From contig NW_026570231.1 in assembly GCF_019649055.1 (NCBI RefSeq), positions 496,001-560,000 of the forward strand: a stretch of 64,000 nt of DNA, in the 5' to 3' direction. The first letter of the stretch is position 1. Each line of letters opens with the position of its first letter. This document shows positions 4,222 through 60,190 of this stretch, piece after piece. The notes beneath the pieces are model-generated. The model was given only the letters and a program-made list of their open reading frames with translations, ran no database searches and was not told the DNA's origin. The DNA comes from Paramacrobiotus metropolitanus (taxonomy: Eukaryota; Tardigrada; Eutardigrada; Parachela; Macrobiotidae). The position numbers were made by a program, and so were the translations under genes.

Positions 4222-5015
4222 TTACAACAAAACCGGGGATGTATTTCCAATACGCACATTGTTATCAGAGCCCCCATAGGGTGCAAACCCATATCCAAGG
4301 AACGGTGGTGGAGGCGGATAGAAGGGTCGTGAGCCATAATATCCCCCGTAGCCAGGACGCTGGTAGTACCCACCGCCATACGCGCCAGCCCCATACCCTC
4401 CACCACCGTAGGCCGGACCGTACCGGCCATAGTTATTCCAGCCCTGATATCCGTTGTAGGTCATCGCATAAGGATTATCGTTGTAATATCCTGCTGTACT
4501 CGGATACGGTCGGTAGTTGGGAGAATAGCCAGAATCATCTTTTTCATCGAAAAATTCCCTTCGTGGCCCGTATGAGTGGTATGACCTTGATGAATAATCA
4601 TTATCTTCGTGGCTATAGGAATCAGAGTAATCGCGTTTGGAGCCCCATCCATTATTTCCGGTGTAGGTATCGTGCCGGTCACCGTAGACGCCGTCTCCGT
4701 AATAAATTCGCGCAGTTCTGTTATTTACGAGAGCTGATGCCGCAGCCACGACATTGTCCACTGTTAGATTCCCGAGAATAGCGAAGTTATTTTCCTTTGG
4801 GATATCAGGCTGAATTGTGATGCTATCATTATTATCATTAACAGCGGAACAAAGACAAAAAATCCACCAATGCCACCACAGAATAACTGAAACCTGAAAT
4901 TAAATAAAACCGATCATGCTGTATAGTAGAATAATAAAACTAAAATGCGGCTTAAACACACTACTGCAACAAAGATACTACGTTTTCCTACCATGTTAAA
5001 TGCATATATCGCCAT
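4222..5015 (-). CDS. Secreted Gly/Tyr-rich protein, two exons
   Basis: Model: exons 4992..5015 (MAIYAFNM) and 4222..4893, joined in phase 0 by a GT..AG intron. Exon 2 begins VSVILWWHWWIFCLCSAV, so the two exons together make a signal peptide of about 26 residues, which supports splicing over an internal start at 4761. The mature part has an N-terminal segment with an N-glycosylation-type NLT, a Ser/Tyr/Asp-rich middle, and a Gly/Tyr/Pro-rich tail (GGGGYGAG, FYPPPPP). It is 231 aa long and matches no family I can name. Like the gene at 1328-2398 it is minus-strand, secreted and Gly-rich, so the two may be neighbouring cuticle-type structural genes (inference). Confidence 0.72.
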
Positions 5016-5433
5016 TTTGCTATCGTTTTCCGTCCACCGAGCGTTTGCGGTTCGCTTATGAGTAGCATCGCTTTTCACGATAAATTAATTGGATCAATAG
5101 AGCATCAAAAAAAGGAGAGGTGGTCAGGTGGACTATGCGGAAAAGATCGTAAAGCACTTTCACTTCTCTATTTCTAGAGTATTAAGCAATCTTCTTCCTA
5201 CACACAGTACAGCTGAGCTTTGCTGGTGCTAACAAGAGCGGAACAACGTAAACTGTCACAACGACCAGTATTATTGAACGTTTGCGAACACAACGGCGTA
5301 ATGCAATTGGTCGGAAAATATCACAGAATTGCTGCCCGCAAACGACGAAACAACACGTTTTAAAACTTGATGGAAAAACAACAAAATAGTGCATTAAAGT
5401 AACACAAACAGTAAGTACCTCCATATGAAAATA

Positions 5434-15125: not shown

Positions 15126-16694
15126 ATGGATGTACGGGAGTTTCAGCGCATTTGGGCATTCCAGGAAAATCGCACGCATCACGCGCTTGGTGAAAAATGC
15201 AAGGAATCTACAGTTCTAAAAAACCAGATTAAAAGCGAGATCGACTTTTGGCGTAGGTACAGAACATCCGCTACGAGTATAGCTGAGAACTTCTCGCCAT
15301 TTATTTTCATACGAGTTTTTTTTAACGGGATCGTCTGACCAAAGTTTTTTGAAGGTGATATATTAAGAAATCTGCAGCTTTTGCACAACAGAACTCGAAA
15401 TGCTTTATATTGGACCCAGCTACCATTGGAAATCAATCATGAAATCGTCAGTTTATTGGTTAAAGCGGTCCAGGACATCCCGGATTTCCTTATGGCGGCA
15501 ATTAAAGATGTAGATGCAACTTGTGCACAGAATGATTTTATGAAAATGTCTAAATGTGTCCTTGGACATTTTATGTGATTTCTGGTTTGTACGAATGGAG
15601 AAATCGTTTTTGTTTGACAGGAAGCCAACGCAATAATCCAGCGAAGTGAAGAAATGTTGAAAATGCAGGGAGATGTGCGACAAAAAGAGATGTATGGTAA
15701 AATCGCACGAGATGGGAATTGATAATCAGAAGCTGAAAATTATTTTTGTAGAGAAGCTAATCACATCCGATCGCAGTTGGAGGGCTTTTGGAATGATAAG
15801 ACACTGGCGCTGGACGTGGACGTGATAGCTCATAACGTGTCCGTTGATTCCCGTTTCATCACGTACAAGCCACTGGCAGAGGGTGCAAATTTAGCTGTCT
15901 CCCACAATAAGTAGGCAGCGGAAATACTACTAGTTGTTCCATAGGGATAATGTTTACTTATAGGAATTGAATTATTCTGCAAGCGATAGTATTCGCTTAC
16001 TAACAAACCTTACCGTTTTAGGGAAGGTGAAAGTTTCTACCGGACAACCGATACAATCAAACGCTCACAAATTCTGCGTGATCTGCAACATAAATTCTTG
16101 AAGGACTGTGATCGGGGAATTGCATTTACGGCTACGGCAATCCAGAATGCCCGTGATAAAGTGATTTCGGCGTTGGCTGAAGGACATCACTTAGCACATC
16201 GAATGAAAGAATTGAATCAGGAACAGCTGTTATCAGCGAACGAAGAGAAAGAACGATTCAAAAAGGACTATCTGGATCTGCGAAATGCGGTGCACGATAA
16301 CAACCGGTCGCTTATGCTGGCAGAAACCAGGCTTTTTACGAGAACACAAAAACCATCCACCGAACAAGAAGATGATGAGTCGAATAAAGCGTATGTGATG
16401 ATGTGGCTTAAACATCTTCGTTTAAGTAACTATCTCTACGATTTTAAATAATAAATTGATCTTTACAGCCTGTTGGATCAGTTACAAACGATGCAGAAAG
16501 TCTACCGCGATAATGTCCTTCCAATGAAATCGCTTCAGAGAGGCGTTCAAGATCTTTTGGATAGTGAAATTGATATTTCTAGAAGTATTGAACTTGTCAA
16601 TAATAAACTAATCACTGTCTATGGGCAATGTGCTGAGCGGGGTAGATTTTATCCAACATCACAGCAGCTGCTTGGATTAGGTAGTTCTTACTGA
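15126..16694 (+). CDS. Divergent tektin
   Basis: Model: exons 15126..15256, 15368..15509, 15621..15696, 15754..15910, 16022..16390, 16469..16694 (366 aa, within tektin range). Family features are the early ALYWTQLPLEINHE segment (tektin LPL.IA.ECL type), the mid-coil WNDKTLALDVDV, heptad-rich coils throughout, and a block AETRLFTRTQKPSTEQEDD at the place of the tektin nonapeptide region (canonically RPNVELCRD). The nonapeptide is therefore degenerate. Tektins are filaments inside doublet microtubules of cilia and sperm flagella. Exon 1 and its splice junction are the weakest part of the model. No paralogue assignment (TEKT1-5) is possible. Confidence 0.75.
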
Positions 16695-32629: not shown

Positions 32630-33282
32630 TTAAGATTTGCTACTGAGAGAAGCAGACATTTTCTCAATTATCTTGTCATAATTGTATCTTTTACGAGGAA
32701 GCAGCTGACCGCTAGCTTTCCACACGGCCACGCGCTGTCGGTAGTAGGTTTTATCTTTTGCGCGTTTCGCCATTCGCAATTCCCAGTAACGTCCGCGCAC
32801 CGATTTCAGCAACATTTTCCGTTCGATTTCCTTCATAAGAACCACTTTATTCCAATATTCCATGGTCGTAGGGTCCAGTTCGCTTAGCGGGGGCGGTGGA
32901 CCGGTGCGCAAATTCCACAGCCAGTCGGGATATTCGTTGTCGGGCTTTAACTTGATTTCTGGTCCCTCTTTCAAATACTGACCGCCACATAGGTAATTAA
33001 CCAGTTTGTGAGGATCACTTTCTACTTCAATTTTCTTCTTTGTTACAGTCATTCCAGCCTTAAACGCTAAAAAGATGCAAAGTTAAGCAGTGAGTGCGGG
33101 TGGACGGATAGACGTTGTCACGCTGGCAGAGCCACAAATACACTAAATGCTTGCTAACCTCCTGTAGTCTTTTTTGGAGGAGGAGCACAAGTAGCAGCGT
33201 ACACTTGAAATGCTCGCCTCTGTTGATGAGAGCCACAGTCTTTAAGCACGGTGGAAACCGTCGACGTTCTTGGGGTCTCCAT
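32630..33282 (-). CDS. MRPL54: Mitochondrial large-subunit ribosomal protein mL54
   Basis: Two exons, 33159..33282 and 32630..33066, join in phase 1 (186 aa; human 138). The start METPRTSTVS begins a basic mitochondrial leader. The family core follows: KIEVESDPHKLVNYL, GGQYLKEGPEIKLKPDNEYPDWLWNL, then LDPTTMEYW and a basic region. Human mL54 has KEGPEVQLKPDSEYPDWLF and LDPETREYW-type text in the same order. The C-terminus is about 45 residues longer than usual and Arg/Lys/Tyr-rich. The gene converges on mS27, with stops 113 bases apart. Confidence 0.9.
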
Positions 33283-34061
33283 TAACGGATGCGTCCATCG
33301 CGTACGTTTAAGCTGCTGTCCCAAAACAAGTAACCCTAATCGGATAATGTCATTCATTATCCTGTTTTCTATGAAAACGAGGACGAAATCCAAATCAGCA
33401 ATCAAACTTGTACGTTGGACAGATAGCCATAAACGACCGTGAAGTGCCGTGAGAACAGACAAACATCTGAGATGAGTAACTAAAAAGCTAAATGCAAGGC
33501 ACCACCAGTTTCTCTCTACGGGGAAGCAGTCGAAGTCTGCATGCTGCAACAACAATAGCAAATGGGGAAGAAACAAAGAAAGAATATATAAAGGTAAATA
33601 AAATAGTTGAGATTTAGATCGCAAAAACCAATATTCACTACAATTCTACATCGCACTTATAGCAGCCTGAAGTCCCTATATATCCAGGATAAACAGACGA
33701 TTACAGGTTGTCAGGTCCCGGTGAGCGGAATGATGCGACACTGGCATTTGCACGTTACGAGTAGGTATCGGATTTACGATTAATTGTATAGAAGTAGTCG
33801 TAGTGATGTACAAATTGTACTTACTTACTGTACTCGTATCGATTTTACACAAGTACCGTAATGTGCTTAAATTCTGTCTAGATCCTTTTTCAGTTATCGA
33901 CGTATCGCTGAAGAAAGAAGGGAAAGCCGAAAGCGAGCCCGTTTGCCCGAGTTGGGTATTAAAATTAAATTTAATGAAGTCGTTACAACTTACAAGCACA
34001 TCTATACAGTACCTTCGGTGACCTTTTGAGTATTCGCCGGACCACACTGATCGTACTAATA
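33283..34061. other. Divergent promoter interval MRPL54 / Rab-like
   Basis: About 780 bases with two recurrent octamers (TACGAGTA 33756-33763; TACTCGTA 33831-33838). Long frames here overlap in several phases and have no splice support. Confidence 0.45.
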
Positions 34062-34829
34062 ATGCCTGACCTGCAGCATATTCAACAATATCTTTCTCTT
34101 TATCAAGACAGCAATGATGCATCTCAACCGAACTCTGGCAACAAAAAGCATTTTAACTTGAAGATTGGTGTGGTTGGACCGTCGCATGCAGGAAAAACTT
34201 CCATATGTGCTCAGATCGCTCATCAAGATTTCCCCCTAGCTTACCGTCCAACATATGGTGCCAGGTTTTACACGAAGAAAGTGCTGTTCGAACAGTTTAC
34301 GGTGGATTTCCATTTCATCGAAGTTGGTGGTAAGGAAGAAAATCAAAACGATTTTAGGGACCTTTTGGGAGAAGTTCGCGTATTTGTTTTCGTCGTGGAT
34401 CTGACCGATCAGTTATCCTTTGAGAGATTTCAATCACAGTGCGTCGACACATGGAAAAAGCAATGCGAAGACGGACTGCTTCTGGGGAACCGAAGCGATC
34501 TTGTTGCTCGAAGGCAAGTCACCACTGAAGCGGCAGAATACTTTGCTCGGGCTCTCGGAGTAGAATACCTGGAAATTTCAACCAAATCTGCAGTCCATGT
34601 GAAAGATGTGCAAAAACGCCTCGAACAGATCGCAAAAAAATTCGTTAACGTAGGATTCCGTGACAAAAGCCAAGAAAACACTGGAAAAGCAGAAGCGGTC
34701 AAACCGCATGCTCCTCCTAGAAGTCGCAAGCAACCGTCAGGGGATGTCACGGCACAAAATACACCTTCCAAAAAATCGAGTGATTTAAGGCTGAATAATG
34801 CAACGGACGACCCGGACGACGATTTTTGA
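34062..34829 (+). CDS. Intronless Rab-like small GTPase, divergent
   Basis: ATG 34062 gives 255 aa in one exon. The Ras fold begins at residue about 31: P-loop GPSHAGKTS, switch I with PTYG, strand FHFIEVGGKEE at switch II, then VFVFVVDLTDQLSFERF (Rab F motif type), the base motif NRSD in place of NKxD, and STKSA for the G5 loop. Relative to WDTAGQE, the Asp is Glu and the catalytic Gln is Lys, which in Ras-like enzymes abolishes GTP hydrolysis. The C-terminal about 60 residues are Lys/Pro/Ser-rich, end DDPDDDF, and carry no CAAX or double-Cys prenylation signal. I cannot assign a subfamily. It could be a retrogene or a regulatory pseudo-GTPase (inference). Confidence 0.8.
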   Translation: MPDLQHIQQYLSLYQDSNDASQPNSGNKKHFNLKIGVVGPSHAGKTSICAQIAHQDFPLAYRPTYGARFYTKKVLFEQFTVDFHFIEVGGKEENQNDFRDLLGEVRVFVFVVDLTDQLSFERFQSQCVDTWKKQCEDGLLLGNRSDLVARRQVTTEAAEYFARALGVEYLEISTKSAVHVKDVQKRLEQIAKKFVNVGFRDKSQENTGKAEAVKPHAPPRSRKQPSGDVTAQNTPSKKSSDLRLNNATDDPDDDF

Positions 34830-36246
34830 ACCAGGAGTCGGCTTGTATAACTTAGAAGACAAAAATTATTGTGCTTTGTGTCTCTTGTGTCTGTCATAGT
34901 GTGTGTGACTTACAATGCTTAATTATTAATCTCAGCTGTGCAATATTATACACTGACAACTATAAGCTGCAATTAACAACCCTGCGAGTACAGCACTCAT
35001 ACAAAAAAATTTACTATGATTCGCAACTTGCAGCACCAATGCAAATTGCAATAATTAACATTGTAAGTATGTTAGTTAGCTATCATGTTCTTAGCTTGTA
35101 CCGGTATACGAGTATTTGAAACCATCTGCTCCGACTTAATTGTGTTCTGGCTGACTGTATGAAATGACAAAAAATTTATTCCTAAACGGCTAACCATGCA
35201 AAATATTACTGTATATAAGCCGTAAGCGATATCAGTAAGTAGTATCGGTTCCAGCTGCAATAATAATAATTTAATTAATTTTAACAGCTGTATAAAAAAT
35301 ATTTTAGAAGTACAACTGTATGTTTATGTGTACAATTGTGTTAATCAGCAGTATTGTAAGTACTTAAATTTTAATTCACCCATTCCATGGCGCGGAAAAT
35401 AATGTAGTCAGACAGTTTAATTATTTTTTTTGATAATTTATATGTATCTCAGTATCTGTAAACTTTAGTGGAATGTGGATTATGAGAGTGAGGTTGCAAC
35501 CAGGACATTGCCAGGCCCGGCACAAGGTTTCTGAAAAGGGGGTCCCATTGCATATCCAGTGTTCTTCCAGGCATTTCCGGTTCAATCATAGACGACAGCA
35601 GTCACAGCAGCCTGCGCCTGTTTTAAATGAAACGAATGAAATGAACCTGATTTGCTTCCTGTTCGCTAATCTTGTGTAACCAACTGATTGAATTCAGCGC
35701 ACGCTGCTGTTGCCGGAATACATCGCTGTATCAGAGTTTGGACAACCGAAGCTAAAAATGTGGTGTGAAATGTGAATTCTGCAGCCTGAAGGCACTGACA
35801 GGGCAGTCAGGCACGGTATTAAAAATCCCATAAATTCCTTCCATCATACAGCAGTAAGACTGTAATAAGACTTAAGAGCACTGCTTCATTCTAAACTTTA
35901 CGGCATTATTGTTTAAAGTTCACTTGTTCTAATCCGAGATACAACGAAGAATCTTCTATTTAAGTCTACAATTTATCTACTTACCGCCTTGTGTCTACAA
36001 TCAACGCAATGGGATGCACTGTCATGCACATGAGTGAAGCTTTATGATTATTTTATCGGTGAAGGCAAAGTCGGTATCTGAACTATCTTCTGTGGTTTTC
36101 AAAGCTCTTCTTCGTGTTCTGTGCTGAGACTGTAAAACCTGCTGCAGTAAGTTAACCTTGTTTGCGAGATCCATTAAGGAGTTTCCCTTGCGAGAATACA
36201 CCTTGCCGTGTGGCAATCATTCTGACGGTGATACAGCGCAGCAATC
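34830..36246. other. Intergenic interval upstream of calcineurin B
   Basis: 1.4 kb without a supportable exon; presumably the calcineurin B promoter and 5' UTR. One TACGAGTA is at 35107-35114. The stretch 35473-35640 is more GC-rich but its 68-codon frame has no match. Confidence 0.45.
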
Positions 36247-36762
36247 ATGGGAAACGAAGCATCCCTGCAGCTGGAGATGTGCAGTACTTTTGACGCCGAG
36301 GAAATCCGACGTCTCGGGAAGCGTTTCAAAAAGCTGGATCTCGATAATAATGGTTCACTGAGTGTGGATGAATTTATGTCCCTGCCGGAGCTGCAGCAGA
36401 ACCCTCTAGTCCAGAGAGTGATAGATATCTTCGATACGGATCTGAACGGTGAAGTGGACTTTAAGGAATTCATCCAGGGTGTCTCGCAGTTCAGCGTCAA
36501 AGGCGATAAGGAATCCAAACTGCGTTTCGCCTTCTCCATCTACGATATCGATCGTGATGGCTTCATCGCCAACGGGGAGCTCTTCCAAGTCCTCAAAATG
36601 ATGGTGGGCAACAATCTGAAGGATCAGCAACTTCAGCAGATTGTCGACAAGACCATCATGTATGCCGATAAGGATGGGGATGGGAAGATCTCCTTCGAGG
36701 AGTTTTGTGCCGTAGTGGGGCACACGGATGTACACAAGAAGATGGTGGTGGATATCATTTAA
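36247..36762 (+). CDS. PPP3R1: Calcineurin B, regulatory subunit of calcineurin
   Basis: A single exon encodes 171 aa (human 170). The N-terminus MGNEASL carries the N-myristoylation Gly2. Four complete EF-hand loops are at residues 31-42 ([12 protein letters not shown]), 63-74 ([12 protein letters not shown]), 100-111 ([12 protein letters not shown]) and 141-152 ([12 protein letters not shown]), each with Ca2+ ligands at positions 1, 3, 5 and 12. The protein pairs with calcineurin A to form the Ca2+/calmodulin-dependent phosphatase. Being intronless amid intron-rich neighbours is notable. Strong conservation and a clean frame argue for a functional gene rather than a processed pseudogene. 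Confidence 0.97.
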
Positions 36763-41232: not shown

Positions 41233-43638
41233 TTAAGCGGCCCTACCTCTTTTCTGGCACTGTCAGCAACTGAACTGATGCAGTCAATCCTGAAGCAGCA
41301 AAATGAATGTTCACAAAAGCTTAGATATCGAAAAAATTTCTAATTTACCTCTTTCGAATAATATACCTCCACTCCGTTTTCAATTACTCCCTGTAAAATA
41401 AAAGCCAAAGTCTGCTAAATTTACTTAACACAATCCGGTTAGTAACGAAATCGATGGGCATCAAAAGCATCTATAAACCAGATCGGTCAACTGACTGTTT
41501 ATCATTACTGAAATTAGTCTCGAAAAAATATGAAAGTTTTGCCTCGAATGCAATGACATACTGAGATCACGTCAGCAGTACTTCTGCCAGATTTTACACA
41601 CCTCGTCCTCTTCTGACTGCGAATCCACATCATGCGTTTTAAACTTCCTGCTCTTCTCGAGCTTATTCAATTTCTCCCTAGAAATAACAAACTGCGTGTA
41701 AGTATGGAACTGGGTTTCAAGACAAAAAACCATACAATGTTTTTGGAAAATACTGATGCATGTCTTCTTGGCTGAAAGCTTGATAGTCCTTGGGACTGTC
41801 CTCTTGCACGCATATATAGCAATTCAGCTTGTGCACAATCGATGTCATTCGTCCAATCACCGTCACGCGTTCTTCAGGGTCCGCAATCGTTGCACTATTG
41901 TATTCCAGTTTACGGTGGCCTAGGTGTTCCGGATTGAATTTCATGGCTTTGCATCTTGTAATGACAGGACCATGCATCAGGCGAACCATCAACACTGTAA
42001 GAAATCGGAATATATAATACGTTAGTTAATCTCATTACATGGTATGGAATTGATTCCGGCCAGTAATAATTTCAGTACAACAGAATAAAGATTACTAAAT
42101 TAAAAAATGTCTGAAGTTTCCAAAATTTGCAGAGCTCGGTAGATGCTTGATTCCTTCTTAGTTTCATTCACCAGACCCGTAAGAAATAGCCTAATCAACT
42201 GTATTCTCATCGCTGCGTTAACTAAAATGATTATAGCAAATCACGTGCCAATGTCACCTTTAGTGTATTCTTTCTGGTTCACTCCATCACCTTCTTCTTG
42301 CTCTTCAATTTCTGGCGTGAGTGCTCTTTTCCCACGCTTTTTCGCAGGCGTTCCAGCGCTCTTCCTCGAGGATGTCACCTCTTTAGTCGACCTGGCTGGT
42401 TTGCCCGTTTTACCCGATGAGCCGGCCACACCGCTGGACGATGGGCGACCAGGCCAGTCCTCCAGATAATCACCCAGTGCTTCTACAGGAGATGGGTCTG
42501 GCTCATTTCTGACCCCACGCGCTGGGCGCGATTTACTCGGTGTTGCCGTATTTCCTGGACGCCGTCGACGAGTGCCGGTTTTACGGTTGTTTCGAGGTTG
42601 TTCTTCCGGATCATCCTGGTCACGGGACGGACTTGACTGGTCAGCAGTCTGCATGTCTTCCAGATCGTTCCCACTCGATCGCCGTGTAGGATAAGCGGAA
42701 GTGACACGCTTCTTTGCCGTAGATGCACTTCCTTTGGCTTTAGGTGTTTTGACTGGATGCTCCCGATTGTACCGCTCCAATAGTTCCGTACAGTTTAGGT
42801 TCTTTTGCGGCTCCCACGTATTCTCACTCTCGGAGCAGTCCTTCCATTTGATTTTATATTCATAGTAACGCCCTCGTTTACGGCGATCCACAATAGCTTC
42901 CACTTCCCATTGGTTTTCGTCAGATCCACTTTCAGCTGAAGGCACCGCGTCCATGTCTTCGTCCTCTACAGAATTAGCGGAATTTTAAAAAAAAACTATA
43001 TTTTATCATTAATATTTTTATGCTTGGCTTATCTAATCAAATTTTATTCGCAGTTACCGAGTTATTTGTTTGGTATGTTTTCATAACAATTCTACAGGAC
43101 TACATACAGGTGGTTTCGTTCTCAAATACTGTAATCAAGTGCCGCGGTAATTACCAGTCTCCATGCCACGCTCGTTGAATTCTTTGATCAGATCCTCGCA
43201 GTGCATATCGGATTCGTGAACCCAGTTGAACTCATGTTCGTCACTTTTGTCTCCGTTCCAGTTTTTCCACACCACTTTGTAATAGACTCCAGGCTTCGAA
43301 CCATTTTTAACCTTACGTTTTTTCTCGATCTTCTCGATTTCGTGTTCTTCGGGAGAATCATCTGCACAAAAACAGAATTTGTCGAATCTCAAAAACGCTT
43401 TCGATTCTGGTTCAATGGCATAGCCGCATATGATATAAGTTTATCATGCGGCCATGCCTACTAGGAGGTACTCGGGCCACTCAAGTGATATGTGTGTTTA
43501 TCAAAAGGCGACACATTATCAGTGATTTCCTGATTTCCAGTTTTGCTTCCACTACTAACCTTCAGGCTCGGTTCCTGCTATCTGTTCTTCGTCATCCTCC
43601 TCCGCTGCGATTTTCTTCTTAGCGATACCTTTCCCCAT
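41233..43638 (-). CDS. Protein with two chromodomains and a divergent C-terminal domain
   Basis: Firm exons: 43560..43638, 43155..43361, 42258..42965, 41736..41994, 41602..41677, 41367..41390, all in phase. The 3' end is uncertain and is placed at 41233. The start is MGKGIAKKKI. Chromodomain-like 1 (about residues 30-85) reads HEIEKIEKKRKV..YYKVVWKNWNGD; chromodomain 2 reads WEVEAIVDRRKRGRYYEYKIKWKDCSESENTWEP with the aromatic cage W/Y residues in place. A long Ser/Arg/Pro-rich linker follows. Then comes a folded-looking segment (VLMVRLMHGPVITRC...FSQEDMHQYFPKTL) that could be a very divergent chromoshadow-type domain (inference), and a Lys-rich then acidic tail. Likely a methyl-lysine histone reader. 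No orthologue named. Confidence 0.75.
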
Positions 43639-47564: not shown

Positions 47565-48674
47565 TCATTCTGTTTCATTGATCGGCACTGGTGAACCATT
47601 AAATTGTCTGGCTCGACTAACAAGAATATTCCATGCGAAATAGTTCAGAGGTTGTTGTTCCGGGATTGCGAGGCCCTGAAATCTGTACAGTCTTCCAATC
47701 CCATGGCAATCAATAGGGTACACAGCGGTAATCTGATGCCGCCCAATCATGCCCGTGTTAGCGATCATTGGTCCACTGCTGATCTCCACATGATCGTCCA
47801 CTCTATACACAACTACGCGATCTTTGGTGGGACTCTTTTCAGCAATGACGGGAATCTGTAGCTTCTTGAATTTATTATGCTCAAACATTTTCATGGCTAA
47901 ATCAGCGCTAATTTCGAGACGCTCAATGGGCAACTTGCGACTGCGTAGCTGCGAGATAATAATGGTCAGAGCGCGAAGTTCGTCTTCTTTGGGATTCCAC
48001 TCTGGCATGTCCAGATCAACGTCGCAGATGAAGCTTCCAGACTGAATGTCCTGATACGGCCAGCTATGCACCTGCACTAAATAATCATCCCGAAAAGCTC
48101 GATCCACCACGTAGGAAAGAATCAACGATCCTGTTCGCCAGAATGCCAAATTCGCTTCGTTAGGGTCTTCTTGGATAAAATGTTGCAGTTCCAGAACACA
48201 ATCGCGTTCCAGAGGCCGATTCATATCCCATGGTTTGCCATCTACCATCGCCAAGGCACTACGCTTAACCAGCACCTCGCTGATGTGTTGCGCGCAGTGT
48301 AGTGGAGTGGAGAAGTTTTTATTCATGATCAGCGTCACATCTTCCGGCTGTCCACGATGCAATACCTCAATTTTTTCCACCCGTGTCACGGATTCAATCT
48401 GTCGGATTTTTTCTTGGGTGAACAGGGCATTGCGCTGCGCTCTTATGGTCTCGTTCGTTACTGTCCGCTTCGTCTTGGGAGCCGGTTCCACAAGTGTTGA
48501 GAGCGGAGGCAACGGAGTACGTGGAAGAGCCAAGAACTGTCGCGATACCTCTAAATCCTGAATGGAAATATTAGGCGCCGATGCCGCCGTGGAAGCAAGC
48601 CTGACTAGTTGACATGGTATGGAATTCAACAGTGCTGTCAAAGAAGATGTTGCTGCCTTCCGTAACGATAACAT
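47565..48674 (-). CDS. MRPL39: Mitochondrial large-subunit ribosomal protein mL39
   Basis: One exon. I start at ATG 48674 (MLSLRKAATSSLTALL), a typical basic mitochondrial leader. The in-frame ATG at 48725 is preceded by nothing family-like, and a CTTTCAG string sits between the two, so a spliced leader or 5' UTR acceptor is possible. The protein (369 aa; human mL39 is about 338) resembles threonyl-tRNA synthetase N-terminal domains: a TGS-like segment (IMNKNFSTPLHCAQHISEVL, ALAMVDGKPWDMNRPL) followed by the ThrRS editing-like part (ELQHFIQEDPNEANLAFWRTGS, ..GRLYRFQGLAIP). It has no catalytic role and is structural in the mitoribosome. It converges with eIF3d. Confidence 0.9.
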   Translation of the reverse strand: MLSLRKAATSSLTALLNSIPCQLVRLASTAASAPNISIQDLEVSRQFLALPRTPLPPLSTLVEPAPKTKRTVTNETIRAQRNALFTQEKIRQIESVTRVEKIEVLHRGQPEDVTLIMNKNFSTPLHCAQHISEVLVKRSALAMVDGKPWDMNRPLERDCVLELQHFIQEDPNEANLAFWRTGSLILSYVVDRAFRDDYLVQVHSWPYQDIQSGSFICDVDLDMPEWNPKEDELRALTIIISQLRSRKLPIERLEISADLAMKMFEHNKFKKLQIPVIAEKSPTKDRVVVYRVDDHVEISSGPMIANTGMIGRHQITAVYPIDCHGIGRLYRFQGLAIPEQQPLNYFAWNILVSRARQFNGSPVPINETE

Positions 48675-48725
48675 ACTGAAAGGAGACTTTGAATCAAACA
48701 GCACTGAGCACAATCGTAAACACAA

Positions 48726-49318
48726 GCAGCGGATTCAAAAGCCGATGAGGGTTCACGTCGTATTTAAATAAGTAATCGCTTGTTCACATGCAAAATTAAA
48801 TCCATCCAACTTCAGAATCTATTACAATTTACAGTTGGGTGCAGCCTTATGGAAGAGAAATTTAGCAATGCAATAAAAAAACTTCAAACCAAAAATTAAG
48901 AAAAACACCCTGGTTTTACTTTTCCCAAAGTCCAAACACAATCACGGAAGCAGACAAATGCTCTCGTCCAGTCGTCCACAAAGTGCTGAGTAGTGAGAGC
49001 TCTTGTTTATTTTGTGTCGACTTGGTTAACTGCCACGGGAGTCGATTATTACTACGGTTATGTACGCGACGCGACAGCATTATTTTACGTACTTACTTCA
49101 ATACAGTACTTGGTTAAATCGTGAAGAACGCTTCGTCACTTCCCAAATTGGCTACGAATAGTGTTGGACGCCTGCATGTTTTTTTTATGGAATAATCTTG
49201 TTGATGTTGATACTGATAGCATACACACTTTGGTATCGGGAATTCCCACGAATTCGAGGACGGGAGGGAAGGAAGGAAGAACTTTCTGAGCAGAAAGATT
49301 GCATTACAAAACTGCAAA
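48726..49318. other. Divergent promoter interval MRPL39 / UCHL5
   Basis: About 590 bases between divergent genes; a GGAAGG-rich tract occurs at 49261-49283. No exon seen. Confidence 0.45.
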
Positions 49319-50869
49319 ATGTCGAGTGCTCATGGCGAATGGTGTACGATCGAAAGTGATCCTGGAGTTTTTACGGAGCTTATGCGCGAGTTTGGAGTAA
49401 AAGGTCTCCAAGTGGAAGAGCTATGGGGATTGGATGAGACCCAGTTTACTGAGCTCAAGTAAGCTAAACTTCGGTACTGCACGACATTAATGCCCTGCAG
49501 TGCAGTTGCTGGAAATTTCCTGTTGGTGGGCGGCTCTTCTCTTTGTTTTTAAAGTGGCTATCCCAGTGCATTTCTTGACATTGTGCTTCTTTTACAGACC
49601 AGTACACGGTTTGATTTTCTTGTTCAAGTGGGTCCAGGAGCCACCAAATACTGCGAAACTTCTTAAGGACGGAACTCAGGACATCTACTTTGCCAAGCAG
49701 GTGAAAAATGCTGCATCTCTCGGTTCTGTAAATTATAAATACGTACTTTTAATTTGTAAAACCCAACCCATTTACAGGTTATTCATAATGCGTGCGCCAC
49801 TCAAGCCATAGTGAATCTGTTGTTGAACACGCAGCATAGCGATGTCCAGCTAGGACAGACGCTCAGCTCTTTCAAAGACTTCACTCAAAATTTCGATCCC
49901 ATGCTGCGAGGACAGTGTTTGAGCAATTCGGAGCAGATTCGTGCCGTCCATAATAGTTTCGCGCGCAATGAGGTCTTTGAGACATTCGGTCGGAAAGCGG
50001 AGAAAGAGGAAGACGTGTTCCATTTTGTGGGATATTTGCCCGTGAACGGGCGTATCGTGGAGTTGGATGGTCTGGCCGACGGGCCCATCGATCATGGTGA
50101 AATTCCCGCGGGAGAAGAGTGGACCAAAGCGGCCACACCAGTTATCGAACAAAGAATGCAAAGGTTGGCTGGTATTTTCTTTTGATATTATCGATTGTTT
50201 TTCGTGTCCCAAACAGTTGTCAATACCTATCTAACATTACCAATTTTTTAATAATTTGTTTTTTTAATTTTGTTTGTTTCTATGTGAAGCTGCTGATATC
50301 TTTTGCTAATACGAGTACTTACTATCCAAAGACCATTAACAATGCTGATTATGGTTCTGAATCGTTTCTGTGATTACAGATACATGGAAGGAGAGATCCG
50401 CTTCAATCTTCTGGCTCTAGTTAGCGATCGTAAACTAGTCTTGAATAGGAGAATCAATGAATTGCAGCAGAATTATGAAAGCATGCCCGATGATAATCTT
50501 GTTGTCGAAATGAACCATCTCAAGGAGTTGCTCGAAGAGGAAAATGCCAAAGATTTGAAAGCTAAGGTGGGCAATTGGTACTGCTCTCATTCTGATGACT
50601 GGCGCGTTACTATTTAACTCAAATTGCCAACATGTTTCTCAACAGGTGGAAAATCTCAGACGAAAGCACAATTTCCTTCCGTTTATTATTGAGTTGTTCA
50701 AAGCGTTAGGAGATTCTGGCAGACTGAATGGGATTTATAACGAGGTAAATGCATATGTGCTCATCCTTTTATCAAAATTGTCGATAATATATTTGTGTAC
50801 CTTTTTTAGGCCGTCAAAAAAGGAACCGAACGTGAGAACAGAAATAAAAAGTTGAAGACCGGTTCTTAG
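49319..50869 (+). CDS. UCHL5: Ubiquitin C-terminal hydrolase UCH37
   Basis: ATG 49319 ([18 protein letters not shown]) to TAG 50867-50869, six exons. Peptidase C12 triad: Cys87 in HNACATQA, His163 in [10 protein letters not shown], Asp178 in VELDGL; the oxyanion Gln81 is in FAKQ. Human UCHL5 has Cys88, His164 and Asp179, so length and spacing agree almost exactly. The C-terminal ULD segment follows with [16 protein letters not shown] and the KEKN-like helix ([21 protein letters not shown]). It ends in a Lys-rich tail that in the human protein binds the proteasome receptor RPN13. UCH37 works on the 19S proteasome cap and the INO80 complex. Confidence 0.95.
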
Positions 50870-51032
50870 TTCGATCCGATTTGCCGGTGGTTATGAGACA
50901 GGCTTCCAGGATGAAAAAAGGACTTTTTTGAATATATTGTTGTATTTACTAATTACCACTCTTCGATTGTTTGTTGCAGTATGTTAGTAATAAACGCTGT
51001 TGGTAGCACCGTGTGCTTTAATAAGATATTCA

Positions 51033-54000
51033 TTAAAATGGTTCAACTGAACGTGTGATCTTATTAGACATGGAGAGCCAATCTGATCGTTGTAAGGCAA
51101 ATACTTTATCAGACGGATGCAACTGGAATCCCTCGGGTGGATTGGTGATGACGTATCGTTTATGGGGGAAATCGGCATCGCTGTCCGTTAAACGAAATAC
51201 TCCCAGAACAATCAATCCCAAACTAGTCAGTGCGTCCAAAAATAAGGCTCCGTAAACAGAATTCTGTAAATGGCCGGGATGTTGAAATACAAATACACAA
51301 TAATACAGCATCGCCGTGATAGTGCTTGGTAGTGGGTACCATAATACTTCATATCCCGTAAGTTTTGTAGATAAATTACGTTGATCCTCCCGTGTTACTT
51401 CGGTACTCACTACTCACCGCATGAGATTGTAGATAGCCGGCTGTAAGTGGCAGCAGAATAATTTTAATCTGATCTTTCATATTAGGTGGCTGGGAAATAT
51501 TGCTTCCTCCGATTAAACCAGCCCCTTCGGCGATAATGCGTTCGAGTTCCAGAGATGCTCCCCCGAAAATCATTGCGTGGAAAACCTAACAATATAAATG
51601 TTTTATTGGAACGATTATCCTCGTTAATGGGACCAAGCCATTTTGCTATCCAATAGGTCACCTTTATGATCGGGGCATTGAAGAAGGATGTTATAGTCAG
51701 CAGGTCCAATACGCTGGCCGCAAACGCTCGCCCACCGGCATACGGTGCTGTACAGTAGAATTCTGTTCCTGGCATATCCTTGTCATCCTGCTCTAAGTAC
51801 TGCACATTCGAATCTCGCACTATCAAAACGAAATTACAATATACGATTATCGCTGCACAGATAGCGATAACCGATGAACTGCAGAAAAAGCTGTTACCGT
51901 ACTGAGATCTGTAATTAAAGGTATGTCATAGCCGGTTTCACGAGGTGTTTCATCAGGAAGAAAAGCTTCCACAGCATCTATATTTGCGACAAAAAAATAT
52001 CAAAACATTATTATTAAATGTGTCAGACATATTCTAGTAGATCACAAAAATAAAACGCGTATTGATTAAGCGATTTTACCTCTTTCCGCACGGGAAAACC
52101 TCATCGATCGCACATTGAGTGTGGCCAGTATAACGTTCTTATCCACCATGGTCGAATCGCTGTTCTTCTTTTCTGTCAGTCCCGGTGACCCGAGAATTAC
52201 ACACATCCCGCACGAATATAAGTTGATGGATCGTAAATCTGCTCGGTTTAACGCACTACCCTAGAGCAGACGAAAAGGTTCTAAAATAGTTTAATTTCCG
52301 GCACCAAAAAATGTTCCTTTACCTTTACAATAAATAACTTGGGTAGGTTGTAAATGTAATGCCATTCTTTTTCAAGATATCCAACATCGCCTAAGATGAT
52401 AATTTCCTGCAGTTCTTCGTAAGGTATGTTGCTCGAACGTAAAGGAAGTACAAAGCTGGACAGTCCAATCAGCTGGGAACTGGATTCAGCCATAACGCAC
52501 ACCACGATATGATTGTGAAAATCCGTAACTGCTGCTCGATACCGGTTCTATTAAATTGTATCCTGAGATTAAAATGTATCTTGAGATTATCGAGGATAAA
52601 TTCGAACTAATTATTCTGTTCTTATTACGAGCAAAATCGCGAATACGTAGTTAAAAGTTCGTAGAACTTACAGTATTCTATGCCTTATTGCGTGCCGTAA
52701 ATGTGACGCACCATAATTATTTCCGGCAATGCTCGAGCCGGACACCAGTGGAACATCCCAGTTGAATCGTACATAATTTCCGAGCTCATGTGTGGTTGCA
52801 GCAATGCAGACTCTTTTGTGGCCACATCCTGGGCGATATCAGTCTCGCTTCCATGTATCGGCCTGAAAAAGCGTGACCTTAGTCACTTAGCGTGAACTGC
52901 GTGGTTACTACGATGTATTACGAGTTGTCATTCATAACATAGATCACTTATGCGATCCGTATTGAAATATTTATTATATAAAGGTTCATCTTCCTTTGGG
53001 TATCAGTAAATTATTATTCAGAAGGTTCGGGCATGGATATTTTTATTTTTTATCGTTGTACGTAATACTAATTATGTAATCGCCCACTCACGTATTCGGA
53101 TACTGACAAATAAAAGACCAAATCTTGGCTTCCAGTTCCAGATCTCCACGGCATGACAGCATTCTGGAAATGTTACTTTGCTGCTTGGTCAGCTTCCCGT
53201 TACGTGACAACGCAACAAAGGTACCTTCAGAAGATTTGACTCTGGTCTCTAGATCTAGATCTGGTTACAGTACTGGCTTAACACAAGTAGCAACAGAATC
53301 ACGCACTATGACAGCTGCACTTCTTGATCAAATCCAAATCGGTGACCCCATTGTGACAGATTCGGCAATAAATTTCCACACTAAACAGACGTCCAGGTAA
53401 TAATAAATACACCGGCCAAATGATCAACACTGGTGATGTAAGGTAAACGTAATCGTACCGGTCAACTTCCTTTGTGCTATCAGCAATAAAATATCCTCGT
53501 GACCCTTCGCAGATCACCACATATGAAGGTGGATTGACTTGTGGAGCGGAAAACGGGTCCGAAGGCTTAATTTGCACGGCAAGTAACACGATTTTCAGTT
53601 TTCGGTAACAAAATCTACGATTAGTACAAAACAATAAGAAGTTTAATCGACAAAATACTTATCGGCAAAATGCAACGGATAAATCTTTTTTCTCACTCGC
53701 ACGCTTCCACAAATCCCATTCCGTAAAACGCTTCACTAAACGGTCGTGAATATAGTTCTAGTGCCGTACCACGGACGTATTCGTCCATCCATGTAATCTC
53801 GGACAACTGCAATTGTTAGCGGAAAAATCTACTAGAATATTAACCTTTTGTCACCCTGAGTTTATAAAACAATTAAACTTTTTTAGAAAAACCATATGTA
53901 TAAATGATATGTTATTCGTTTGGTTTTAACCGTCGTTATATACAGAAATTATATAGAAAAATTAACCTTCGTATCGCCATCTTGAGATCGTGTCGTAAAA

Positions 54001-57000
54001 AAATTGGCCATCAGAGTTGAGAATCCCGGCGCACAACAACTTTGTGCTAGCAAACCCAACCGCAGCTCACTGATACACAACACAGTATCGCCATATTTTG
54101 GATTCCAGCTGGGGATATTTTGCAAATATGCCTGAAATATGCAATCTGTTAAATTTTTTGTCTATTGCAGTCCCGGTATCATAAAGTACAATGTATGACG
54201 AAGACAGTATAAAGCACGAATAACATAAAGATTACAGCACTCAAAATCGTTAACCATACTTTATTGTGATATTGTAGTATTTGTACAATGATGCGCGCTC
54301 TCTCGCGGTAATTTTTAATAGCAACTACGCGCATGATATTAGCGGCATCTTCCGCATCGGATTCCGCAGCAGTCCGATCGGCCAAAATCATCACCGCTTC
54401 GGCATCCATTAACTGCACACGGTTTAAGTCCTTCAGTTTCATACATGTCCCGCGCCGGTAATCCAACCGATTGAAATACTGCTCCAATAAATTCCGCATA
54501 TCCTCATCTGGTTCTTTTTCATCCAGTATCAGAATCTTGAAATATTCACTAGTTTCGCGATCTTTGTTGTAGAACTCTTTAAGGAAACTGCTCATCACCG
54601 CAGCATTAACCGATCCGCATACGATTACGTGTCTGCAGCAAAAACCATCAGAACGTCGTCTGCACAAACGTTTGGAATAAACTATATAACTGGAAAGGTG
54701 TTCAAGGAAGTAAACGTACAAGAACATTATAGGGGTTTCGTATTTTTTATCGTATTCCGGAGTTATCCTCACCAGAAGTATAATCTGCGGGATGGCTTTA
54801 CTAACGATTCCCTGCAATATGTGACAGAGCAAGTTGACCACGAACGTTTGTATTTATTCGATTTGCCGCACATACCAACGCCAAAATTTGGAAAAAGTAA
54901 ATAATGATCCTTCCAAGCTACAACAAATAGTTCACCGTGTAATTCAATATGCAAGATGAAATTCATTAATTGATTAAACACGTCCAATATTTTCCCGTCC
55001 CGGACTTCTGCTGTTATTATTATGCGCTGAGCTACAGTTATATTTCTGCGTTTCACATGCTACTACGAGTATTTATATACCAATTTTGGTAGGGAATCAC
55101 GTAGTGAGTCCATAATCGCATTAATTCGAGCATACCATTGTACGTATCCGCATGCCACTTAGGTCCAGTAAGGTCACTCTTCCATACAAGTAAAGATAAC
55201 AGCGCCAAAAAGAAATAGACTGGCCATTGTAAGTGCCTTTATTGGCAAACGGCCAAGGATCTCCCATGTTTTCCACCTATAAACAATACCGGACTCATAC
55301 GTACGTAGAATATTATAATCTACAATGGAACGCTGACGAACAGATGCGTACCAAATGCAGGAATCCAGCTGCAATCATTAGCAGAGAAACCACAGTGAAG
55401 ACCAGTTTAGCTAATTTGATTGTATTGGTTTTTCGGAATACGCCACGGTTGGAAAGTATGTCCACAATCCACAGAAAATTGTAGGCGCGAAAAAACGAAA
55501 AACCTGTAAAAAGGTGAACATGCTTTGCCAACCTAAGTATAATCTGCCACATTACTGCACGAGTACTATAACAAAGAGTCCAATTACCGGTAAAGTAGCG
55601 ATTCAAGAAAACGCTGATCATAACCGGTGGAATCGTGAAGTAATCCACAATGCTGTGCATTGAGTGCTGGATAATTCGGATTTTCTTGTCGTTGCCGATC
55701 AGCTGCAAAACTGACTATTACTGGATATCCAAAATTATTGCTAATCACGTTGTGAAATTATTGGTATTACTGACTCGAACAATGAAGTAAAACAGCATGT
55801 ACAAATTAGCCACAAAATCCAACGCCTGGTATACGTTCGGTAATGTCCCGCAGGTTTCTACACTGTCAACTGGCCTGAAAAAGCCAACACGCAAAATTAT
55901 GAAATTAAAACACCTTTCCAATTTCGTTACAACTTGCAATAATAAGACCCTAGTTATTTCGATTTAGTGCTATATAAAATCAAAAAACACTCCAAGCAAC
56001 TTACATGGACACCGTAGAAAGATAAATGCACAATGATACAGCCGCACAAGTAACCGCAATCGTCATCTGCAAAACCAGCTTGTTACGTTTCAACTTTTTT
56101 ACGGTTTGATACCAGAAGTAACCATATCTACAGAGTATATAGCAGTACTGGTATAGTTACTGTAGCAGTAAACTTCCGTCGATGTCGTGAAAAGAAAATT
56201 TGATGTTATAAGAAACAAAATTTCTTATGATTTTGAGACGTTGTGAGAAATTTATTAATGGAAATTAAGTTAAAAATTGCAAAAGAAAAACGAAGCACTC
56301 GTACAATTTTGTAATTCGTTACTCCCCTTAAAACATCAAAATTATACTGCTGTAATCTTGAAAAGTCAACTGCATAAATCGTAACAGCAGCCGGTTTACA
56401 GTTGTTCTAGTGGATTGGTTCCATCTTACCACGATCTGTCCTTTTTTGAAAGCATGCGGAAAAAATGTGGAAACAGTTATAAATTTGCACTGCAGTATGC
56501 TGTTCGTGTTTATATTAATTTTATAATGGTCTTTTAGTAATTCGTGCACCAATTCAGATTAATATTAATTTGTACATATATTTTGTACCAGAATTTGGCC
56601 CAGCTGACTTTGAGGGGAAGCTGCTTCCGTAAAAAACCTCATAAATGGCGACTGACGCTGTTTTGCTTCCATCAGCAGCTTCATTCGTTCGACACCGGAC
56701 TTTTTAATCCCACCTTGAGCCATTTCATCACTGTCGCTGTCAGATGGTTTTGGCACAAATTCTTCATTAATATTGTCTTGACGGCACTGTAATCCTCGAC
56801 GCTTCAAATTGCGCAGCACAAATCTTCTTAATCTGTCAAACTGGACATAAATCAGAGCCAAAATCGGGATGACAAAACCGGAACCGAAGTAAATATACAC
56901 CAATTCCTTTCTTCCCACCAAGTAACACGGTGCCGGCAACCTAATCGAAATAAAACCACAGTCATTTTATTGCTTAATTATCTATGCGAGTTTCATTTAC

Positions 57001-57473
57001 TGACACTCGCATAACCAAAGGAGGTAACTGGAGAAATTTTAAGGTACAGTATAGTTACAAACAAATTTTTAGATAGTGCAGACCCTGTAAAAGGAACACT
57101 TCACGCATATATTCTACAAATTTGTCTATATAAGCGATAATACGGCTGATCATGAATTTCAAAATTTACTATCTGCTATAACGAAAGCAAATACCGTATA
57201 TACGGAGTTATTTAAAAATAGTAATAGTATGTTATCTTATGTACACATTTCTGGCCGAGAAAATCAGTTTGTTAAAAGTACGCCTCGCCCGGATTTATTA
57301 TTGCTATATAAATTTTTTTTGTAGTTATTATCTGTTAGGTCTTTAAATGATTGGGGATATGAATTATGAACCTCGATCAATAGCTACTGTACGTACGGAA
57401 CGGTAGCATTAGGATCATAAGTCGGCCGAACAACCACCGGAAACGGAAGCGGAACACATCCACCGGCATCCAT
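51033..57473 (-). CDS. SLO/BK-type channel subunit lacking the K+ filter signature
   Basis: Resolved 5' exons: 57397..57473, 56589..56940, 56005..56066, 55775..55874, 55588..55702, 55352..55503, 55136..55276, 54876..54917, 54720..54811, 54260..54632, 53967..54131; the stop is at 51033. Order as in SLO1: S0 ([19 protein letters not shown]), S1, S2, S3 ([17 protein letters not shown]), S4, S5 ([15 protein letters not shown]), pore, S6 (LGRIIIYFF), RCK1 ([26 protein letters not shown]), the [10 protein letters not shown] linker, RCK2 with a calcium-bowl-like [11 protein letters not shown], and [10 protein letters not shown] near the end. Against human KCNMA1 (from memory), the pore aligns without gaps but reads TLLDLSG where STVGYGD is expected; S4 keeps one of three arginines. 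The frame is intact throughout, so it is probably an expressed, altered SLO paralogue. Confidence 0.85.
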
Positions 57474-58041
57474 TGTTGCGATGATGTTCCCAGATTCGCT
57501 TATAATACGAGGAATGAGCCAAATAAGTTATCTAGCAGTAAAAATGACATAACAAAATACGGATCAACAGGCATCAGCGAATTGCCAATAATAATGAGAT
57601 ACAGTGCGTAACACGACTGCCGACACCTTGACAAGAAAAGGGATGCTGATGTTTTGACAGCAGCTCCCGTGCTCTCCCTGACTAATGCAGCGCGAAAGAA
57701 ACGATAATGCAGCGCGAAGGAAACGATATTTGCACAGAAAATGTGACTTGGAGGTGCCCGACTTAGGTATAAGACACTCTTGTATTTGACGATCTTGGTA
57801 AGCAGTGTCGCAATGACAATACATTTGAGAGTCACTACTGTTTTCCATAACGAAACTGCAAGCACAGCGTTTATTTTGTTTGGTGTAGTCGTGCAAGACA
57901 ACGAACCTTGCTATGCCCAGACTCACTTCGCAGTTTTTTTTATCCAAACAACACAATCAGATTTAAAGAAATCTTATTCAACAATACAATTAAGCAGCAA
58001 AGTGGACCGTAAACTGAAAAAAATTAAAACATTCAACTTTG
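57474..58041. other. Promoter interval of the SLO-like gene
   Basis: Contains a near-perfect 22-base tandem duplication (57684-57727). Two overlapping minus-strand frames (57500-57956) in different phases lack family matches and are treated as non-coding. Confidence 0.45.
57684..57727. repeat. 22-base tandem duplication
   Basis: AATGCAGCGCGAAAGAAACG plus AT at 57684-57705 is repeated at 57706-57727 with one A-to-G difference. Confidence 0.9.
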
Positions 58042-60190
58042 CTATCTGAAAGGTTTACGCTTAATATATTTGTAATACCAAAGAAAAGCTGTTATCACGC
58101 TCAAGGAAAACCACGTTATGGCATAATTCATGTGTTCATTGCGCATCTCGATGATGGTCTGACCTCCAAGAGGACCTCCCGGAATACTTGATTCTAAAAG
58201 GCAAAGTTTATAACTGCTCTTACGGTCTTACTATAAAACCACTATTCGCATCAGGAATAGTTTTAACACTTCCCAAACTTCTAAATTATGTTTTCCAGTT
58301 CGTAATCAGGTACAATTAACCCTCCTATTCTACCCCTATCAAAAGCCGAACGGACGACAAGAATCCAGCACAACTTATATAACATTCCCATACGCGCATG
58401 GCTAGTTCAATATCCAAGTTTATCAACGTAATTAGTTACCTTTTGTTGCTTCGATTAACAGGGGCGTCACACCTAATTCTGCAGCCATAAGATCGATATT
58501 TCGCACCGCATAATTTCTAGAACCCTCCTTATGGACCGGGGAAAACCTGCTGCCCTTTTCGGATCTCCGCAAAGCTCCGACCACTTGCACTTCGCCCTCC
58601 ACTTGACCTTCCGATCGGGTGGCTGGATCCAACCGGGCTTTCGGCACCCAGCCTCTATCCACTAGAATAGTCTGACTACAAACCAACAAAATATTACAGT
58701 GAAATTAAAATGAACGATACCTAATACACAATAAGAAATGTTGGCGAAACAGCTTCTTCAATCTTTAAAAATCAGTGATATTTCACAACAGCAGTGTGCA
58801 CATATCTATATATCGCATAATACGAGTATATGAGACATTTGCCATATATGGAGAACTAAGAAGATTTAAACACTTATCAAGAAATCCACGTCCAGAACAA
58901 AGAGAAGAGTAACTGCGATACATGCTAATGCAAATGGACACACATACTTGGATTCGCTTATAGTAAAGGGCGTGATGACACGACCACCGTGGGTTGGTGA
59001 GGAAATTAAGCCACCACCAGCCGGTACCGAGGTGATAGGAGTTCTGGGCACCAAGTAAATTTCATGGCTGTGGTGAAATTTTCCACGCAATTTCACTCGC
59101 CGATACTCCAAATCTCCAATGTCATCCACACTTTAACAAATCAACACACCTGATAAAGCGCTGCAATTGAATAATACGTATTTTGCTTTTAGGATTTTGC
59201 CTACTGTTTTAGCAACAGTATCGATAATCTTACAGACGGTCTGGCGACAAAATTTGGAAAAAAAAAGGACAACGCTTAATCTTTAACCTACTTAATTTCA
59301 CACTGACTTTGAAATATCAATTATTTCAGAAGCAAATTGTTTCCAGACCTGGGTGTCAAAAAGGGGAGTGCCGACATTAAAGTAATGGGGCAGTTAACAT
59401 TACTGAATTTATTTTCTTTTACCGAAAGTTACCGAAAAATCTGACAAACAGCAAAAAAAAAGTTTTATTTCCATGAAAAACGTGCCAAACCAAAAGAACA
59501 CGTCTAAAAAAAGCGTAACAATACCGGAATGATCTTAATTACATACTAATCGTACACAAAAAATATTCGCACCTAGCAGGCAAATTTTCGTATCCGAGCG
59601 GCGGAGCACGGATTCTTGTTGTCCTTTCGTCAATCAAACCCAATTTCCATTTTAGACGTCGCAGCTGCCAAACTCCAAGACAAAATGTTAAAACAGGAAC
59701 CACCTAATTGTAGGACAAACAAAACGTAACACTATCAAACGCTCAGCAGACACTATTTAGCTTCAAGCCGTATCATATATTATCATTCCTGGGCCTGCTG
59801 ACTTGAATAGATATGTTCAAAAAAATCAGACAGCCCGTATTACTTAGTAGACTTATCGTTAAATCAAGCGTACAAAATGTTAATATCGCTATGTATCGGT
59901 ATAAAACAAACACAGATCAGTATGCACGCTCTTACTAAAAGCACATAATTTCGCGACTGGTGAGCAACGGTGTGGTCCTTTTCGAAGAACGAGCCAGATT
60001 TTGTGATATTACGGAGAAAAACACTGTTATTTCCGAAACGCTTCGCTCCAGGATTGTTCTTCCTGGCCCAAATGGAACACCATGACGAATCAGTACTCAG
60101 TATTCGGTGTCCATGGGTCCGCAGTCCCGAATTGCGGTAAGCAAAGAAGAGCGCGTATCGCACATTAGAAGAATGTAACAACAGTTTCAT
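58042..60190 (-). CDS. SURF1: Cytochrome c oxidase assembly factor SURF1
   Basis: Exons 59936..60190, 59573..59703, 58948..59130, 58440..58675, 58042..58193 join in phase (318 aa from ATG 60190; human 300). The leader is basic (MKLLLHSSNVRYALFFAYR). The first membrane helix leads into LGVWQLRRLKWKLGLI, as in human FGLGTWQVQRRKWKLNLI. LEYRRVKLRGKFHHSHEIYLVPRT follows, then LISSPTHGGRVITPF, TILVDRGWVPKARLDP, IPGGPLGGQT and the second helix near the C-terminus with RNEHMNYAITWFSLS. SURF1 sits in the inner mitochondrial membrane and assists COX1/haem a maturation. An in-frame upstream ATG at 60235 is possible. Confidence 0.93.

Follow-up and report, generated by a model that had tools for sequence, protein, structure and literature searches.

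Analysis of a stretch of 64,000 nucleotides from the tardigrade Paramacrobiotus metropolitanus (the window; GC content of about 41%) revealed an intact homolog of the SLO1/BK channel (KCNMA1, Slowpoke) in which the potassium selectivity filter is absent. The data point to this window gene (WIN), encoded on the minus strand at about 57.5-51.0 kb, belonging to a group of genes derived from SLO1 that has been maintained and in which another conserved pore sequence has taken the place of the K+ filter. We hold it to be almost certain that these are real genes devoid of a K+ filter, and the filter-altered proteins probably do something other than pass potassium.

Modelling of WIN on its paralog L001 by spliced alignment resulted in a gene of 22 exons and 934 amino acids with no frameshifts and no stops. 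The Pfam domains RCK1, BK_channel_a, RCK2 and Slowpoke_C appear along the protein in the expected order, and the 936-residue model obtained on human SLO1 is 38% identical to it over human residues 115-1056, so that the SLO1 homology proposed in an earlier note on this DNA was well founded. Neither did any Pfam family match the pore exon at E values up to 0.1, nor was a C-terminal cyclic-nucleotide domain matched at the same threshold among the 10 WIN open frames scanned, RCK domains being found there instead. Regarding the models, the spliced aligner was written for this analysis, and the human SLO1 reference was compared with PDB. In the WIN model based on human SLO1 the first two small exons are spurious and the model is sound from S2 on; S1 was taken from the L001 model, and the initial exon and the 5' boundary of the S0 exon were set by eye. 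The number of frameshifts in WIN varied with the reference: one on human SLO1, located in a poorly conserved stretch between the first half of RCK2 and the calcium bowl, one on L004, and none on L001, L002, L003, L009 or L021. The exon layout is given in Table 1.

Table 1. Exons and domains of the SLO1-like gene WIN (positions within the window; residues in human SLO1 numbering).
Feature	Position	Strand	Basis
Probable first coding exon (MDAGGC...)	57397-57473	-	By eye, no alignment support; ATG at 57473, GT donor after 57397, phase 2 fits next exon
S0 segment and S0-S1 linker exon	56589-56940	-	End, spliced alignment to L001 (aligned 56589-56636); start, by eye at AG acceptor
S1 exon	56005-56066	-	Spliced alignment to L001
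S2 exon, D153 and R167 kept	55775-55862	-	Spliced alignment, residue table
S3 exon, D186 kept	55588-55702	-	Spliced alignment, residue table
S4-S5 exon; R210 kept, R207 to S, R213 to N	55352-55503	-	Spliced alignment, residue table
Pore exon, different residues in place of SLO1 VYLLMVTMSTVGYGD	55136-55276	-	Translation, spliced alignments to human SLO1 and L001
S6 first half, I308 to Q	54876-54917	-	Spliced alignment, residue table
S6 second half; S317 to K, E321 to Q, E324 to L	54720-54811	-	Spliced alignment, residue table
RCK1	54260-54632	-	PF22614, E 9.6e-28; spliced alignment
BK_channel_a region after RCK1	53967-54131	-	PF03493, E 4.7e-13
Three more exons after RCK1 (53697-53806, 53459-53614, 53303-53380)	53303-53806	-	Spliced alignment
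Two tiny exons, uncertain	53241-53254, 53092-53128	-	Model on L001
YDSTGMFHW exon	52712-52862	-	Spliced alignment
RCK2 exons (52323-52547, 52080-52260)	52080-52547	-	PF22614, E 4.6e-14; spliced alignment
Exon leading to calcium bowl	51903-51977	-	Spliced alignment
Calcium-bowl exon	51662-51819	-	Spliced alignment, residue table
RCK2 C-terminal part	51418-51585	-	Spliced alignment
Last coding exon, Slowpoke_C, to stop	51033-51263	-	PF21014, E 5.5e-15; aligned to 51093, remainder is open frame to stop

Judged by eye only, the gene is flanked by the end of a UCH-type deubiquitinase (50001-50870, plus strand) and by a SURF1-like protein (about 58000-58700, minus strand). The window also encodes a protein with four EF-hands (36232-36762, plus strand; EF-hand Pfam matches), similar by eye to calcineurin B, and open frames for a Ras-like GTPase (33978-34829, plus), a tektin (15990-16451, plus), a mitochondrial L37-like protein (32630-33082, minus), a chromo-domain protein (42241-42984, minus) and a TGS-domain protein (47565-48734, minus).

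Translation of the pore exon agreed with its earlier description as that of a SLO homolog without a K+ filter: the SLO1 stretch WECVYLLMVTMSTVGYGD is replaced by other residues, with LLDLSG at the site of the TVGYG filter. Both introns beside this exon are of phase 0, in keeping with the consistent splice phases and open frame noted previously. The alignment to human SLO1 had been described as gap-free, and this was found to be correct from W275 to the LGR motif; the description fails for the whole exon because of a 4-residue insertion in the turret before W275. The reported lack of a GYG string in other frames was also confirmed, since no G[YFL]G was present in the three gene-strand frames of the WIN S5-to-S6 block. 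A search for the string [TSAVG][TS][VIL]G[YFL]G in all six frames of the sequence examined at the 15 filter-less loci described below, the window locus included, found no occurrence. It has to be noted that the same search recovered the filter in 12 out of 13 filter-bearing loci, the miss being L020, whose filter is split by an intron; a split filter can thus be overlooked by a string search.

To place WIN among its relatives, the genome assembly (169,799,020 bases in 533 contigs) was searched; the locus counts that follow are lower bounds. At least 28 SLO1-family loci had a pore that could be read: TVG[YF]G is kept in 13 of them (L010-L020, L022 and L023) and changed in the other 15, in 13 cases to a different conserved sequence. 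These 13 genes correspond to group A, formed by five genes like the window gene (WIN and L001-L004), and group B, with eight genes (L005-L008 and L028-L031); group C comprises L009, with TIGSPD, and L021, with TIGGSE. That WIN belongs to a conserved multi-gene group had been missed in the earlier note, and the canonical SLO1 for which it had recommended a search is present as L010, modelled over human residues 112-659 and 62% identical to human SLO1 in that part. The 47-residue pore-exon query gave 10 matches in the genome, namely itself, eight open paralog exons corresponding to L001-L008 (E values from 8e-17 to 0.11) and L009 (E 0.86), and the match to the paralogs is far from chance. With the canonical SLO1 pore as query, 27 places were obtained at E up to 1, the TVG[YF]G paralogs among them; judging by position and weak scores, some of the 27 are other K+ channels. 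Two extra queries were used, one of which provided four more group B loci and the other no further group C locus. No additional group A gene resulted from one RCK1 query of the genome, and no relative outside it was detected when viral contigs were scanned once with the RCK1 open frame. Each of the eight group B pores is followed, at most about 7 kb downstream, by Slo-like RCK stretches that exceed the Pfam cut-off, and group B genes are therefore SLO-like as well.

Two loci were left out of the counts: L024, which would fit as the C-terminal half of L023, and L025. The region of the latter (L027, then L025; G000:C18:40715-52714) carries the C-terminal half of a SLO gene that is closest to group A and has its calcium bowl intact, and no convincing pore or S1-S6 within the 12 kb examined; it may be a gene for the gating ring alone, or one interrupted by a very long intron. 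The models of group B, L003, L010, L020 and L023 are incomplete at the C-terminus. The L007 model contained one frameshift on each of four references (human SLO1, L008, L028 and L029) and two on L006, that of L018 one on human SLO1, and that of L004 one on human SLO1 and none on L001 or WIN; L008 and L028 showed one stop each when modelled on L006 and none on the other references shown. The group C pores lie at 3001-3168 (plus strand) in L021 and at 5001-5126 (minus strand) in L009, both full-length SLO1 paralogs. Among the TVG[YF]G genes, L015 and L017 are close TVGYG copies, 90% identical and placed on two contigs (C325 and C22), which could be true duplicates or uncollapsed haplotypes. A cluster of TVGYG/TVGFG paralogs (L018, L019 and L022-L024) was observed at about 81-132 kb of G000:C107; in this cluster the calcium bowl is gone from L018, L019 and L022, and L023 is not covered there.

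Inspection of individual positions (human numbering) revealed residues common to the 13 genes of groups A and B: K/R276, Y282, G283, K/R284, D289 and Q308. In S6, the five group A genes carry K/R317 and Q or R in place of E321, and E324 is conserved only in L002. In S4, all five have N213 and keep R210, and none has R207. D153, R167, D186 and D367 are retained throughout group A, and E535 in four of the five genes, the L003 model being poor at this position. With respect to WIN itself, the calcium residues D895, D897, D367 and E535 are all present, and the BK features missing from it include the TVGYG filter and the S4 gating charge R213. The loss of R213 is shared by the 12 TVG[YF]G duplicates other than L010 and is therefore not specific to filter-less genes. 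Both bowl residues, D895 and D897, were found in three of the four group A genes with data (L004 being the exception and L003 uncovered), in the two group C genes and in none of the 10 TVG[YF]G duplicates for which data were available (the models of L010, L020 and L023 do not cover the bowl). Calcium sensing is doubtful in group B, since its eight genes have N at position 367 and its models reach no bowl.

The maintenance of these genes was analyzed in 13 pairs: eight within groups A or B, one in group C and four between TVG[YF]G genes. The two closest filter-less pairs showed dN/dS values of 0.15 (L008/L028; dN 0.143, dS 0.981, 656 codons) and 0.11 (L006/L029; dN 0.161, dS 1.41, 575 codons). 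Among the remaining six pairs of groups A or B, four of which involve WIN, synonymous sites were saturated and amino-acid identity was 45-59%. The preservation of protein sequence with synonymous sites saturated or nearly so is a strong argument against a pseudogene, an assembly error or a frameshift, and these values indicate that the filter-less genes are subject to purifying selection. The pore takes part in this conservation. A 32-codon pore stretch was more alike than the whole protein in seven of the eight A or B pairs (0.75 vs 0.59 for WIN/L002) and equally alike in WIN/L003; in the C pair it was slightly less alike (0.53 vs 0.55). The four TVG[YF]G control pairs all displayed a pore surplus, in three cases larger than in most filter-less pairs (0.91 vs 0.69, 0.62 vs 0.43, and 0.91 vs 0.54), so that the replaced pore is conserved, but less tightly than the K+ filter. 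Furthermore, differences at codon positions 1, 2 and 3 of a 36-codon pore stretch amounted to 113, 79 and 227 of 360 each in group A and to 246, 129 and 620 of 1008 each in group B (summed over pairs, which overlap), and this third-position excess indicates that the exon is neither dead nor misread.

Regarding function, the reading that we favor, at somewhat less than an even chance, is that the filter-altered genes encode proteins that derive from SLO1, sense Ca2+ and would form conducting assemblies of their own around a repurposed, non-K+-selective pore. Subunits would assemble as SLO1-type tetramers, calcium would move the gating ring, and the opened pore would not be selective for K+, since the carbonyl ladder provided by TVGYG has been lost and Asp 289 and Gln 308 now occupy that pore region. 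Voltage control is probably reduced in the window group as a result of the loss of R207 and R213. The S6 residues of group A at positions 317, 321 and 324 are unfavorable for cations, so an anion-passing or shut pore is possible, and the positive residues at 284 and 317 disfavor an easy flow of cations. A pairing of K/R284 with D289 is also conceivable.

A close rival, which we regard as quite possible although not probable, is that these subunits conduct nothing and join canonical SLO1 or the TVG[YF]G paralogs through the gating ring, lowering or retuning the K+ current in a Ca2+-dependent manner. Such a role would be consistent with the conserved gating ring, with the retention of the bowl by most of the window group, with the loss of the S6 acid ring in the window gene and K/R at 317, and with the presence of filter-bearing partners in the same genome. 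However, a plugged pore would not obviously need its loop to be more conserved than the remainder of the protein, as observed in seven of eight A or B pairs, and thirteen long-kept genes are many for inhibitors. Electrically silent Kv subunits (Kv5, 6, 8 and 9) offer a likeness as paralogs that possibly work only with partners, but they keep GYG, unlike the filter-less genes described here.

More tentatively, the genes may represent a class of calcium-gated channels that arose from SLO1 in this lineage, in which YG would have been lost first and the pore then rebuilt around the conserved Asp and the S6 Gln, giving a non-K+ pore, for cations or anions, on a BK-type gating ring. The order TVGYG to TIGGSE or TIGSPD to LLDLSG is a suggestion from the motifs and not a tree result. 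In the tree based on the full alignment, pore included, the 15 filter-less genes formed one clade with a support of 92, and A grouped with B at 100. When the pore and S6 were left out, A, B and C were each recovered as a clade (100), A joined B at 66 only, and C grouped with human SLO1, L010 and L020 (85). Once group B, L012, L014 and L023 had been removed in addition, a clade uniting A and C was neither shown nor rejected (p-AU 0.194), and the best tree needs two changes. On these grounds, our claim is that filter losses would number one to three, rather than that there was a single loss. Both results, the support of 92 for a filter-less clade and the placement of the TIG genes elsewhere in the absence of the pore, make this stepwise origin slightly less likely.

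We consider it unlikely that the proteins act as Ca2+-sensing membrane scaffolds or signaling proteins whose pore domain is structural only: the conserved gating ring and the missing gating charges R207 and R213 would suit this role, but conservation is higher in the pore stretch than in the protein as a whole in seven of the eight A or B pairs. There is very little likelihood that an alternative exon outside the model supplies TVGYG in some transcripts, although the split filter of L020 shows that a string search could miss one; the 15 filter-less loci, as far as their sequence was examined, contain no unsplit filter string in any of the six frames, and S6 has changed together with the pore, both of which speak against it. 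Hardly credible at all is a pseudogene, an assembly error or a frameshift-compensated exon, as the odd motif itself and the single frameshift in the models on human SLO1 or L004 might suggest, given the intact model on L001, the low dN/dS of the two closest filter-less pairs, the codon-position pattern and the same motif at 12 other loci with open pore exons, and the view of the earlier note that an assembly error is unlikely was thus upheld.

Coming back to the proposed Ca2+-sensing protein with a repurposed pore, its closest known relative is SLO1/BK, with which WIN shares the segment order, two RCK domains, the calcium bowl, Slowpoke_C, VENxGDPW at the start of the pore exon and LGR at the start of S6. 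It differs from SLO1/BK in the replaced filter, in R at positions 276 and 284 of the pore helix, in Q308 and K317 of S6 and in the lack of E321, E324, R207 and R213. A tetramer with an acidic pore-loop residue recalls bacterial Nav/Cav channels and CatSper, whose pores carry an acidic ring; no pore homology is claimed, and the Asp of WIN-type genes occupies the site of the first Gly of GYG. The filters of CNG channels lack the YG of GYG, and TIGGSE and TIGSPD of group C appear similar to them, as partly changed K+ filters minus YG; this is a likeness, not descent, and group C genes are built on a SLO1 backbone and carry RCK domains over their whole length. This CNG-type filter (TIG without YG) is restricted to L009 and L021, and WIN has lost TIG too. 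In PMC6091977, the CNG filter is given as ETPP, without discrimination among alkali cations.

A calcium-activated potassium channel duplicated in tardigrades has been described, and the multiplication of these genes has been linked to signaling in anhydrobiosis (PMC5531438). The family expansion is alike in our data, and the statement in that text makes no mention of the pore. Duplication of SLO genes in tardigrades was thus already known; the replacement of the filter is apparently new, as no description of such a replacement in SLO genes was found in the literature searched, whose coverage was partial.

Few channel sequences are as conserved as the K+ filter. If the proposal is correct, these genes would constitute a natural experiment on the change of selectivity, in which the BK gating ring was kept and the filter was replaced under selection, with Ca2+ sites kept in most of the window group and partly changed filters coexisting in the same genome. 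Altogether, this would bear on why tardigrades multiplied their SLO genes.
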